The notes below the pieces were generated by a model. It was not told the DNA's origin. It ran no database searches and was given only the letters and a program-made list of their open reading frames with translations. Both the position numbers and the translations under genes were made by a program. 64,000 nucleotides of DNA from an uncultured Candidatus Melainabacteria bacterium (GTDB lineage: Bacteria > Cyanobacteriota > Vampirovibrionia > Gastranaerophilales > Gastranaerophilaceae), in NCBI GenBank assembly GCA_949841365.1, contig CATKZI010000001.1, forward strand, positions 372,001 to 436,000. Direction: 5' to 3'. Shown here piece by piece: positions 4,978 through 21,379 of the stretch. Numbering within the stretch: the stretch's first letter is position 1; each line of letters starts with the position of its first letter.

Positions 4978-6283
4978 CACAAACCTCCTCAAGTTCAACT
5001 ATTTCGGCAGTTTTACCTGTAAGATGCTCCCAACGATATAAAATCACATCACAATATTTAGGTTCAAGTTCAATAATTCGTGCCCTGCGTTTTGTACGTT
5101 CTGCCGCAATTAAAGTTGAACCGGAGCCGCCAAAAGAATCCAAAACAATTCCGTTTGGTGAAGAACAGTCTAAAAGTGCATCCATAATCATTGGAACGGG
5201 TTTAACTGTCGGATGCAGTTTTACCAAGGTCTTAGCTTGCGGATTGCTGGTATGCATTCCTTTATATTTCCAAACATTTGTACGATATCTTCCGTGAACC
5301 CCAAGTTCGACATTATTTATATGAGGTTTTGTGCCATTTTTGAATACAAAAATAAATTCATGCTGAGAACGATATAGTGACCCCATACCACCTGTGCCTT
5401 TATCCCAAACGCAAATATTTTTGAGCGAAGAATAAACTTCACTACCGGCATCAAGCATTTCACTAACATGACGCCAATCCATACATTGATAATGTATAGA
5501 GCCGTCAATTGAATATCTTACTTGCAAACTCATTGCAGTTTTGAGAAAATCAGTAAACTCATCTTTTTTCATTTCTCCGGAAGCAAGTTCAAATTCTTCA
5601 TGTTGTTTTTGCTTGGTAACATTCCCTTTAATTTTGACGTTATAAGGCGGATCTGTAAAAACAATCTGTGCTTGCTCATTTTTCATGAGTTTTTTGTAAC
5701 TAACTTCTTCTAATGAATTACCGCAATAAAGCAAATGCTCGCCAAGTTTCCAAAGCTCACCACGATTTACTCGTTTTGGAATATCAACTACATTTGCTAA
5801 AAATTCCATATCAGGATCTGCTTTTGCCGTTTCTTTTACACTTTCAAAAGCCTCAGGATTTAGTATTAAGTCGAGTTGAGGAATATCAAAGCCTGTAACA
5901 GTAGCATCAAATCCAATCTCAGGTTCAAGATTCATTAGAAAATCTAATTCAATTTTCAAGATTTCATTGTCCCAACCGGCTTCCTCGGCGAGTTTATTGT
6001 CTGAAATAATATAAGCCCTAATTTGTTCCTGACTCATGTGACTTAAACAAATGGTTGGAATTTCAGTCAATCCTAAATCACATGCAGCTAGTACCCTGCC
6101 ATGCCCGGCAATAATAAAGTTTTCTGCATCAATAAGTACAGGATTATTAAATCCTAACTTTTCAATACTCTGTGCAATTTTATGCAATTGCTTTTTACTG
6201 TGTGTTCTTGAATTCTTTGGGTTGAGTTTTAAGTCCATCGGATTCAAATAACGAATTTCCAAGCTCTCTTGTTGAGTTCTCAT
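4967..6283 (-). CDS. ParB-like domain / DNA methyltransferase fusion
   Basis: 438 aa. Residues 1-115 are a ParB/Sulfiredoxin-type domain (FNNPVLID, IIAGHGRVLAA). Residues about 175-430 are a DNA methyltransferase with TDPPYNV (catalytic DPPY 211-214), HPTVKPVPM and the SAM-binding LDSFGGSGSTLIA (381-393). DPPY before the FxGxG-like motif indicates a beta-class N6-adenine or N4-cytosine enzyme. This fusion is common in prophage packaging modules, where it modifies phage DNA. It is the first gene of the operon with DUF5681 and the terminase, and has a good Shine-Dalgarno. Confidence 0.9.
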   Translation of the reverse strand: MRTQQESLEIRYLNPMDLKLNPKNSRTHSKKQLHKIAQSIEKLGFNNPVLIDAENFIIAGHGRVLAACDLGLTEIPTICLSHMSQEQIRAYIISDNKLAEEAGWDNEILKIELDFLMNLEPEIGFDATVTGFDIPQLDLILNPEAFESVKETAKADPDMEFLANVVDIPKRVNRGELWKLGEHLLYCGNSLEEVSYKKLMKNEQAQIVFTDPPYNVKIKGNVTKQKQHEEFELASGEMKKDEFTDFLKTAMSLQVRYSIDGSIHYQCMDWRHVSEMLDAGSEVYSSLKNICVWDKGTGGMGSLYRSQHEFIFVFKNGTKPHINNVELGVHGRYRTNVWKYKGMHTSNPQAKTLVKLHPTVKPVPMIMDALLDCSSPNGIVLDSFGGSGSTLIAAERTKRRARIIELEPKYCDVILYRWEHLTGKTAEIVELEEVCDVE

Positions 6284-15645: not shown

Positions 15646-15672
15646 AAAAGCGGGTTTAAAACCCGCTTTTTT
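15644..15672. terminator. Bidirectional terminator between the LysM gene and the prepilin gene
   Basis: AAAAAGCGGGTTT / AAACCCGCTTTTT is a near-perfect inverted repeat with A/T tracts on both sides. It overlaps the end of the minus-strand prepilin gene and follows the LysM stop directly. Confidence 0.88.
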
Positions 15673-16414
15673 AATATTCCATTTTCCAACCATCATCAAT
15701 AATTTTGCCAACAAAATTGAAAACATCTGATGTTTTAAATGTATCTTTATTGTAATCGTCAAATATGTTTCCATTTCTGTCTATATGGAAGTTAAAGTAA
15801 TCTCTGCCGTAAATATTTGGTCCTTGCTTTCCGTTTATATCAAATTCAAAACTGATAACAGAACCGGCGTGCATTTCGTGTCCATGAACATTGTTTTCTT
15901 CATTATTCTCATCTTCTATAGCATCTAAATGTGCCGTATCAACACAAATTGCAGTTCCGTCTGCAATAACAGCTGTTACCCCGCATTGCCATTCCTTTAC
16001 CTTATTAATTCCGGAACCGTCAATTGTTTTATATTCATCCGCGAAACAAGGTGCATAACTGCCATTGCAGTCTTTGACGACTTTAAAGTAACCGTTTATA
16101 AAACTCTTCATTCCGCTAATACTGTTTCTCAAAGGTGTTTCTCCAAGGTTAACAGCTTTATTATCGTTTACATAAAGTTCAATTGCTTGTGATGTTATAT
16201 TATAAAACTTATGCAATTGCGTTACATAAACCTGACGCTGGTGATTTTTAACCAGTGTTGGTAAAGTCATTGCCGAAACTACCCCGATAATACCGAGAGT
16301 TACAAGAACTTCTGCAAGTGTAAAAGCCAAGCGTGCCGCTTGACCCGACACTCGGGTTTCGCAAAAATCCCCTAACTCACTTGTTATAAGTACATTCTGT
16401 TGGGGGGGGGGCAA
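15671..16414 (-). CDS. Type IV prepilin-like protein, apparently out of frame at a poly-C tract
   Basis: About 247 aa if read from a TTG at 16414. FTLAEVLVTLGIIGVVSAMT is the prepilin cleavage site and hydrophobic helix. A DINGKQGPN motif appears later, as in other pilins of this window. The only start with a good Shine-Dalgarno (TGGAGG, 8 nt) is ATG 16437. From there the 10-C tract at 16402-16411 shifts the frame into a quick TAA; 11 or 8 Cs would join it to the pilin frame. The leader is unusually long because two tandem hairpins (16328-16357) are embedded before FTLAE. It is either a phase-variable pilin or a broken one. Confidence 0.75.
   Translation of the reverse strand: MPPPQQNVLITSELGDFCETRVSGQAARLAFTLAEVLVTLGIIGVVSAMTLPTLVKNHQRQVYVTQLHKFYNITSQAIELYVNDNKAVNLGETPLRNSISGMKSFINGYFKVVKDCNGSYAPCFADEYKTIDGSGINKVKEWQCGVTAVIADGTAICVDTAHLDAIEDENNEENNVHGHEMHAGSVISFEFDINGKQGPNIYGRDYFNFHIDRNGNIFDDYNKDTFKTSDVFNFVGKIIDDGWKMEY
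16328..16357. repeat. Two adjacent perfect hairpins inside the prepilin leader
   Basis: CAAGCG-TGC-CGCTTG (16328-16342) abuts ACCCGA-CAC-TCGGGT (16343-16357). The first hairpin and its flank resemble the GTGGCGGGT-type repeat at 22065, 29213 and 48166. The segment encodes the CETRVSGQAARLA part of the leader, just upstream of FTLAE. Confidence 0.7.
16402..16411. repeat. Homopolymer tract of ten G (C on the coding strand)
   Basis: A run of 10 G in an AT-rich genome, 26 nt inside the predicted start of a prepilin gene. It sits between the best ribosome site and the pilin frame, the geometry of slipped-strand contingency loci. The run could also be miscounted in the assembly. Confidence 0.9.
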
Positions 16415-16487
16415 TTCTTAGTAATAAATCTTAACATGTAAAATACCTCCATTTACATGTCTATTATTTGTTATTTTGGAGTATTTG

Positions 16488-17720
16488 TCAAGATGTATAC
16501 TTTTTCCCGACAAGTTCATCGGGCAGAAATTGTTGTTCAATATCGGGGGCAAGGTGTGAATATATGTAACCTTCGCCAAAACCGTATTTTTTAGCGTCTT
16601 TATAATGAGCATCTCTCAAATGCATCGGGGGCGGAAAATCTTTTCCGCTTTCAATATCGTGTAAGGCTTCGTCAATTGCCATAACTGTTTCGTTGGATTT
16701 TGGTGCGCGTGCAACATAAATTACAGCTTGTGCAAGAGGAATTCTTCCTTCGGGTAAACCAAGAAGTTCTACGGCTTTATATGCGTTCAGTGCAATATTC
16801 AACGCGTTCGGGTCTGCGTTTCCGACATCTTCTGCGGCACAGGTTATCAGCCGTCGTGCAATAAATCTCGGGTCTTCGCCCGCATAAATCATTTTTGCAA
16901 GGTAATAAATTGCCGCATCTGGATCAGAACCTCTCAAACTCTTTTGAAATGCTGAGGCGCAGTCGTAATGTTCCTGTTGTGAATATCTTGTGTTGCGTTT
17001 CTGGCAGATTTCTTCAATAATTTTCACGGTTAAATTGCGTCTGCCGTCTTTCAAATCGCTTGCGAAATAAGCGTTTTCAACAACGTTAAGTGCATATCTT
17101 GCATCACCGCGGGCTAAATTTATGATAAAATCAATTGCGCCTGTTTCGCAGTCCATAGGCAAATGATTTTTTGCAAGGTAGGCAAAACCGCGTTTGATAA
17201 TTTTATCCATACTTTCATCATCAATGGAATTTAATCTTATAACCTGCAAACGTGACAAAAGTGCGGGAACAACCTGAAATGACGGGTTTTCTGTTGTTGA
17301 ACCTATTAAAAATAATGTTCCGTTTTCAAGATGCGGAAGCAGTGCGTCCTGCTGGGTTTTGGAGTAACGGTGAATTTCATCTATAAACAGAATTGTTTTT
17401 TGACCTGCGCGCAGTGCTTCTTTTGCCTTGTCAACAGCATCTTTAATATCTTTTACACCTGATGTTACGGCAGAAATTTCAATAAAGTTTGCTTCTGTTT
17501 TTGTTGCTATAAGTCTTGCCAGTGTTGTTTTTCCGCATCCCGGAGTTCCCCAAAAAATCAACGAAAAAAGTCTGTTGGTTTTTAAAAGGTTTAAAATCGG
17601 GCTGTTTGGTGATACAACATTACTTTGACCCAAAAAATCTTCTAATGTTTTCGGGCGCAGAATTTCCGCAAGCGGTATTTGTTTATTTATATTTTCAAGT
17701 TCCGTAAACAAATTGTTCAT
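16488..17720 (-). CDS. rarA: Replication-associated recombination protein A (RarA/MgsA AAA+ ATPase)
   Basis: 410 aa from the ATG at 17720. Walker A is FWGTPGCGKTTLAR and Walker B is ILFIDEIHRYSKTQQDALLP. Then come sensor GSTTENPSF, GRGDARYALN-like ARGDARYALNVVE and the C-terminal clamp-loader-like domain (SLRGSDPDAAIYYLAKMI). RarA acts at stalled forks. Start choice: an upstream extension has no Shine-Dalgarno, whereas 17720 has TACAAT exactly 6 nt upstream, predicting a leaderless transcript. It is divergent from a solute-binding protein gene whose ATG is only 14 bp away. Confidence 0.92.
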   Translation of the reverse strand: MNNLFTELENINKQIPLAEILRPKTLEDFLGQSNVVSPNSPILNLLKTNRLFSLIFWGTPGCGKTTLARLIATKTEANFIEISAVTSGVKDIKDAVDKAKEALRAGQKTILFIDEIHRYSKTQQDALLPHLENGTLFLIGSTTENPSFQVVPALLSRLQVIRLNSIDDESMDKIIKRGFAYLAKNHLPMDCETGAIDFIINLARGDARYALNVVENAYFASDLKDGRRNLTVKIIEEICQKRNTRYSQQEHYDCASAFQKSLRGSDPDAAIYYLAKMIYAGEDPRFIARRLITCAAEDVGNADPNALNIALNAYKAVELLGLPEGRIPLAQAVIYVARAPKSNETVMAIDEALHDIESGKDFPPPMHLRDAHYKDAKKYGFGEGYIYSHLAPDIEQQFLPDELVGKKYTS

Positions 17721-20358: not shown

Positions 20359-20668
20359 TTTTCTATCCTCTTTGTAGAATTTGGTATTACTTTTTCTGTT
20401 TAGGACAGTCACTCGCTTTTGCTAGTTCCCGTTTCTACCATTCTTTGTAGATTCTGACTCGACCTGTGAAATTTTGGTCTGTCTTCTACCCTCTGTTTAT
20501 CCAATAGTGATTCTATCAAATTGAATGGTATATTAACTCGTCTAAATATATTATTTTGCTATTATGTTAATAAATGTTTACAAAAATTCAATTACTCTTT
20601 AGAGTTATGATTTTATATTGAAAAATGCGGGCATATATGTTATTATAGAGTATATGGAAAGGATATTT
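20359..20668. other. 310-bp gene-free stretch before the third prepilin
   Basis: It holds the leader of the minus-strand gene ending at 19990 and the promoter region of the prepilin at 20669. Small imperfect dyads are visible (CTAC ... GTAG near 20436, GACC ... GGTC near 20461), but there is no convincing RNA gene, ORF or named element. Confidence 0.5.
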
Positions 20669-21379
20669 ATGAGAAGATTTAAAGGTTTTACTCTTACTGA
20701 ACTTATGGTTGCTTTGGCAGTTATTGGTATTCTTGTAGCAGTTGTTACACCTGCAATTATGAAAACCAGACCGAATAAAAATAAAATGATGGTTAAGAAA
20801 ACATTCTATGCAACCGAACAGATTGTTAATTCGTTAATTAATGATGATATTCTTTATCCTGATATGCGTGAAGCATGTAGAGTCGGAGCACAACCAAGCG
20901 ATGAAGATTATATTTATTGCGCCTGGGGGTTTGATTATGTATATGAAGCGGATCAGGAAGGCGATATATATGAAGGTGAAAACAAATTTGGCGCATTGTT
21001 TAAATCAAGATTAAATGTTTCAAGAAATTCCGGTCAACAAAGCGGTGAAGGACCGAATGGTCAGGATTTCTATCCTGTTTTCTTTACATCAGATGGTGTT
21101 AAATGGGATTTGACAGACACTATTGATGCTTGGGACAGTGAAAAAGACAGAGTTGGAACATTTGATGATCAAGATGCAAATACGGCAGGTGTCGGTACAA
21201 TTCTTATTGATGTTAACGGAGATGAAGGCCCTGATCAGGTATGTACAAATGATGAGGGTACGGAGGATTGTGACCAGTATGAGATTCAAATTCTTGCAAA
21301 CGGCAAATTGAGAATTAATCCTGACCATGCAAGAGCTGTTAATTGGGCAACAATTAACACATCAATTCGTGATAATTAA
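20669..21379 (+). CDS. Type IV prepilin-like protein
   Basis: 236 aa from the ATG at 20669, with GGAAAGGATATTT upstream; an earlier in-frame ATG adds 17 residues. The short basic leader MRRFKG precedes FTLTELMVALAVIGILVAVV, giving a cleavage site after Gly6 and Glu5 of the mature protein. The C-terminal domain has Cys pairs and a DVNGDEGPD motif like the other pilins here. It is probably a minor pilin or pseudopilin, exported and assembled by a type IV pilus or type II machinery encoded elsewhere. rnpB follows directly. Confidence 0.88.
   Translation: MRRFKGFTLTELMVALAVIGILVAVVTPAIMKTRPNKNKMMVKKTFYATEQIVNSLINDDILYPDMREACRVGAQPSDEDYIYCAWGFDYVYEADQEGDIYEGENKFGALFKSRLNVSRNSGQQSGEGPNGQDFYPVFFTSDGVKWDLTDTIDAWDSEKDRVGTFDDQDANTAGVGTILIDVNGDEGPDQVCTNDEGTEDCDQYEIQILANGKLRINPDHARAVNWATINTSIRDN

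Follow-up and report, generated by a model that had tools for sequence, protein, structure and literature searches.

Neisseria keeps in pilE/pilS a bank of mostly silent pilin sequences, from which gene conversion feeds one expressed locus. The pilin genes described here would likewise form a mostly silent bank, but every copy is a complete gene that carries a Shine-Dalgarno sequence (SD) and ATG itself. Phase variation of Neisseria pilC depends on an in-frame poly-G/C tract of 9–20 bases (Jonsson 1991, cited in PMC5953494). Shared with the present case are a G/C homopolymer within the coding frame of a type IV pilus gene and a frame that sets ON or OFF; pilC, however, accounts for one or two genes, encoding a protein associated with the pilus, whereas here there are dozens of pilin-like genes, with 88% of tracts at exactly 10. 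About 30 G/C tracts occur in the small AT-rich genome of Campylobacter jejuni, where tracts below a preferred length are biased toward insertions and those above it toward deletions (PMC4965091, PMC8224891). Many G/C tracts in one small AT-rich genome are common to both cases, but the C. jejuni contingency loci lie in mixed genes, with surface structures stressed, and a broad spread of lengths is expected, whereas here one family and one length dominate. In Bifidobacterium breve, the G tract of a sortase-dependent pilus undergoes replication slippage; the gene is out of frame in the reference genome, and an in-frame version makes pili (PMC9187656). A gut commensal, a G tract in a pilus gene and an out-of-frame reference are shared with the present case, in which the sequence suggests slippage; by contrast, B. 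breve has sortase pili in one or two clusters per genome, whereas here type IV pilin-like genes make up a large bank. Our literature search turned up no account of phase-variable pilins in Gastranaerophilales or Melainabacteria. The system works like known contingency loci, and is new in its scale, its default-OFF frame rule, its uniform tract length and its strand rule.

Anatomy of the locus

The window is a 64,000-nucleotide stretch of DNA (GC 35%) from an uncultured Candidatus Melainabacteria bacterium with a genome of 1.69 Mb; its RecA is 95% identical to that of the Candidatus Gastranaerophilales bacterium genome that holds locus L174, which makes it probably a member of the Gastranaerophilales. 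Reading of the minus strand placed an ATG at 16437-16435 and the bases AATTG directly before ten C (16411-16402), the sole C or G run of seven or more within the window (Table 1). An earlier note on this DNA had described an ATG with an SD that leads into ten C and stops after 17 codons, and direct reading confirmed this: frame 0 at C10 gives MLRFITKNCPPPNRMYL, 17 codons closed by TAA at 16386-16384. The prepilin frame, from FTLAEVLVTLG at 16324 to a stop at 15673-15671, is reached with 11 or 8 C, as the note had also stated. A TTGACA...AATAAT pair of similar kind occurs 5' of other C-run leaders in the same genome, and endings resembling that of the leader extension recur at L013, L014, L017, L026, L041 and L047. 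Repeat-like in-frame inserts between the tract or start and FTLAEV were seen in the window (16325-16401) and at L117, L129 and L159, with endings like GQAARLAFTLAEV and a duplicated FTLAEGATHVA...FTLAEV with the palindrome TGCTACGCACGTAGC.

Table 1. Features of the prepilin locus and its surroundings (positions within the window).
Feature	Position	Strand	Basis
C10 tract, proposed switch (G10 on the plus strand)	16402..16411	-	Direct reading; one of at least 46 in the genome
Leader ORF, frame 0 at length 10, OFF reading; ATG to TAA, 17 codons	16384..16437	-	Direct reading
Shine-Dalgarno GGAGG, 8 nt 5' of the ATG	16446..16450	-	Direct reading
Promoter-like TTGACA (16491-16486), 17 nt, AATAAT (16468-16463), at the end of the rarA-like gene	16463..16491	-	Direct reading; putative function
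Leader extension from tract to FTLAEV, 77 nt; prepilin frame without stops; repeat-like ending RVSGQAARLA	16325..16401	-	
Prepilin body, 217 aa from FTLAEVLVTLG	15671..16324	-	TIGR02532 match and structure model
rarA-like ATPase gene directly upstream; same-locus marker in G004 and G028	16488..17720	-	
Second prepilin of the window (L113), tract-free, ordinary leader MRRFKG-FTLTELMVALA; control	20618..21379	+	

The product has the features of a class III signal, with a processing site before F, E at +5 and a hydrophobic stretch (FTLAEVLVTLGIIGVV). The prepilin body scored 18.1 bits against TIGR02532, above the cut-off of 16.3, and 17.3 bits against PF07963, under the cut-off of 21.2. In an AlphaFold model (pLDDT 84.9), the body was predicted to form one long N-terminal helix (3-54) and a beta-strand domain; this long helix followed by a globular beta domain is the fold of a type IV prepilin-like protein. 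A Foldseek search of the model against the PDB gave no significant match. A prepilin peptidase is present, and type IV pilus genes have been reported in a single-cell study of a relative (PMC5877343).

Tracts across the genome

The earlier note had pointed to ten identical bases in AT-rich DNA at this exact position. By a first-order Markov estimate, 0.0004–0.0005 C or G runs of ten or more are expected in the window and about 0.02 in the genome, and the run is thus beyond chance length in a coding or promoter region. The genome gave 106 nine-mer matches, 100 of which are accounted for by 46 distinct runs (C9-C13); about three more runs lie behind the remaining matches, and the total is at least 46. 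These 46 comprised 39 runs of 10, four of 11 and one each of 9, 12 and 13. Most (33/46) sit between the ATG and the FTLAEV motif of a prepilin, and further runs lie in prepilin leaders with a diverged motif or longer spacing, for example L016 and L018. None of the 63 prepilin matches in the genome contained an internal stop, which argues that the OFF genes are not decaying. The tract-free prepilins inspected mostly had ordinary short in-frame leaders such as MKKA-FTLAEV, and two of them, L124 and L126, showed eroded tracts.

Tract length sets the reading frame

Among the loci of this genome with a clear SD, 27 of 30 with a tract of 10 needed +1 to reach the prepilin, both loci with 11 were in frame, and the single locus with 9 was out of frame. 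When all fetched loci outside G041 were pooled (nearly all from the genus and G053), those in frame numbered 4/4 at length 8, 1/24 at 9, 4/78 at 10, with the other 74 OFF, and 25/30 at 11, counts that are not independent draws because the loci were partly selected by tract length and are paralogs. Loci with 12 were mostly out of frame. For 130 of the 147 prepilin loci, the ON length was 2 mod 3 (8 or 11). Every pairing of run base (C or G) with codon phase followed this rule, which therefore does not reflect one inherited arrangement. It was repeated in G053, from another genus, where all 12 loci with a tract of 10 needed +1 and five of six prepilins with 11 were in frame. The leader extension after the tract averaged 138 nt. 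Between tract and FTLAEV, the prepilin frame was free of stops at 64 of 66 loci, compared with 0/66 and 1/66 for the other two frames, and translation therefore seems to start above the tract and to exit in the prepilin frame at least sometimes. Run length, at these loci, sets the reading frame of an intact gene.

Tract length among related genomes

Across the 33 genomes of the genus, exact runs of 8, 9, 10, 11 and 12 numbered 8, 79, 1458, 95 and 21 when counted with a G-flanked search pattern, which biases flank comparison of the loci from other genomes. Length was exactly 10 in 1458 of 1661 runs, and 9 was as rare as 11. In G041, from another genus, the length was 11 in 33 runs and 10 in one; G053, from a third, had 59 runs of 10 and 11 runs of 11. 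The equilibrium computed from C. jejuni rates (PMC8224891) has its mode at 9, with ratios of 0.14 for 11/10 and 1.8 for 9/10, whereas the ratios in the genus were 0.065 and 0.054, much sharper on the short side. Lengths 9, 10 and 12 all leave a gene OFF and ought to serve equally well; the tract is therefore kept at 10 by more than simple neutral slippage. The spread was broader in G002, with runs of 10 to 14; these carry other flanks, and some lie close to contig ends. G002, G021 and G029, of the same genus, each have about 100 prepilin homologs and only 1, 2 and 0 C10 runs, perhaps through lost tracts or assembly breaks at tracts.

Matched runs of related species differ by one base. At the locus behind the rarA-like gene, the tract is C10 in the window species and C9 in G004, and G028 is tract-free with a normal MFKTG-FTLSEV leader. 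At four matched loci of G003 and G016 (82–91% identity over aligned stretches), the lengths were 11 versus 10 twice and 9 versus 10 twice. Leaders also differ in three of the four pairs, and L291/L298 is therefore the sole clean pair, with 91% identity over 2 kb spanning the tract; here a long ORF spans the tract and is broken at 11 (L291) and open at 10 (L298). Run length thus differs at the same locus between related genomes, which belong to different species and not to strains of one.

Strand orientation

In the genome holding the window (contigs C1-C7; L009-L052 and L269-L280), C runs lay on one strand per replication segment, and that strand switched once in C1, between 260 and 298 kb (about 282 kb). 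Third-codon-position GC skew, corrected for gene direction, had the matching sign in all tested stretches, weakly in C4 and near the C1 switch. Its sign change in C1 coincided with the switch of the C-run strand, and this point at about 282 kb is a likely replication origin. As skew sign matches run strand, the G strand lies on the G-rich, presumably leading, strand in 46/46 runs and C on the presumably lagging one. Genes read the run as G or C depending on their own direction. The listed run positions of G053 and G041 showed blockwise orientation likewise. The shared orientation prompted us to consider a mobile element carrying the tract, which was unsupported, only the G...GA flanks being strongly conserved. 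The results support enlarging the single-locus view of the earlier note to a genome-wide system, in which length is far more uniform than under usual free slippage and the orientation of the run follows replication rather than the gene.

Proposed switch and alternative explanations

We consider it likely that this tract switches a phase-variable prepilin gene, and that it represents one of many copies, spread through the genome, of a default-OFF device operated by slipped-strand mispairing. An on/off switch of this kind, at present OFF, had been put forward in the earlier note, and the sharing of the pattern by dozens of paralogs and about 30 species speaks in its favor. From the anatomy and the length variation between species, we infer that the tract would change length by mispairing during replication, with a bias toward 10. 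The default state of each pilin would be OFF; on rare occasions a +1 slip to 11 would turn it ON until a slip back. A cell would then show few, changing pilins, drawn from some 35 switchable genes, with a few dozen further genes being tract-free. If this holds, few single-family phase-variable repertoires known to us are as large as that of these uncultured gut bacteria, default-OFF through frame, and gene callers will mis-annotate such genes, with alternative starts and lost leaders. The question raised is what keeps the length of a homopolymer so exactly constant in about 30 species.

The uniformity of length 10 (1458/1661) and an ON state that lies +1 from 10 (130 loci) and hardly ever -1 (6 loci) would also be accounted for by programmed recoding, in which +1 slippage of RNA polymerase or a -1 ribosomal shift gives a fixed share of prepilin from C10/G10 and length 10 is conserved for that. 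On a homopolymer, the -1 shift is the easy direction, and the sharp length peak keeps this explanation alive. We nevertheless judge it unlikely: internal in-frame tracts with no need for recoding are also 10 long (L022, L031, L039, L040 and L050), in-frame alleles of 11 and 8 and one-base differences between relatives exist, G041 keeps 11 and not 10, and bacterial transcriptional slippage has been described chiefly for A/T runs (PMC1088944).

An assembly or sequencing artefact, by which a real length of 11 with the genes ON is called one short in long C runs, is very unlikely. A uniform -1 error would give the same picture, and poly-G runs do trouble Illumina reads (PMC9187656), but the same genome yielded calls of 11, 12 and 13, runs in G041 were called as 11 in 33 cases and as 10 in one, a tract of 10 puts non-pilin genes in frame, and the pattern is consistent over about 30 assemblies. 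Least credible is translation from TTG 16414, which the earlier note had set against the switch and which would make the run merely part of a proline-rich leader: the codon adjoins the tract in the prepilin frame but has no SD, G-run and ATCG-C10 leaders of paralogs have no start codon at its position and often a stop just upstream, and the SD-ATG is kept at nearly all loci, with those of 8 and 11 in frame with it.

A second architecture in G041

In G041, the G11 run lies inside a short leader ORF, mostly MQK..IERISGGGAT[ND] followed by a stop; about 140 nt further on, a separate SD-ATG serves the prepilin. CCTCCG stands exactly 39 nt past the run at 23/23 loci (L229-L248). Pairing of this motif with the prepilin SD is predicted, with a mean probability of 0.99 compared with 0.80 when the middle is shuffled. 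With start codons assigned by position, and doubtful at two or three loci, the leader at 11 meets a stop 8–11 nt after the run at 22/23 loci, and at 12 it would read through CCTCCG at 21/23. On the evidence of this one genome, G041 may have a leader-peptide phase switch, OFF at the modal length and ON at +1, that acts through a different output.

More tentatively, the phase-variable prepilin switch may belong to a lineage-wide pilin lottery in non-photosynthetic gut cyanobacterial relatives, an extension that we hold with less confidence than we would an even wager. Tens to more than 100 genes would lie one base off, with the tract held at exactly 10 (11 in another genus) and G always on the leading strand. 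There would be two outputs. One is a leader-pilin fusion; the other, in genus g10, is a leader peptide under phase variation, which at +1 would be read through an anti-Shine-Dalgarno and would free the pilin ribosome-binding site.

Tracts in other genes

Internal tracts in other genes of the genome holding the window, namely L022 and L031 (the first tract of each), L039, L040 and L050, were in frame at 10, and length 10 therefore means ON there and OFF in the pilins. C10/G10 tracts were also seen inside long non-pilin ORFs of relatives (L061, L063 and L291/L298), in frame at 10 except for L291, which has 11. All of these are possible candidates for ON-default phase-variable genes. At L174 of Candidatus Gastranaerophilales (about 5181-5200, minus strand), a non-prepilin membrane-protein gene carries a leader of the same type (SD-ATG...C10) and is one base out of frame.
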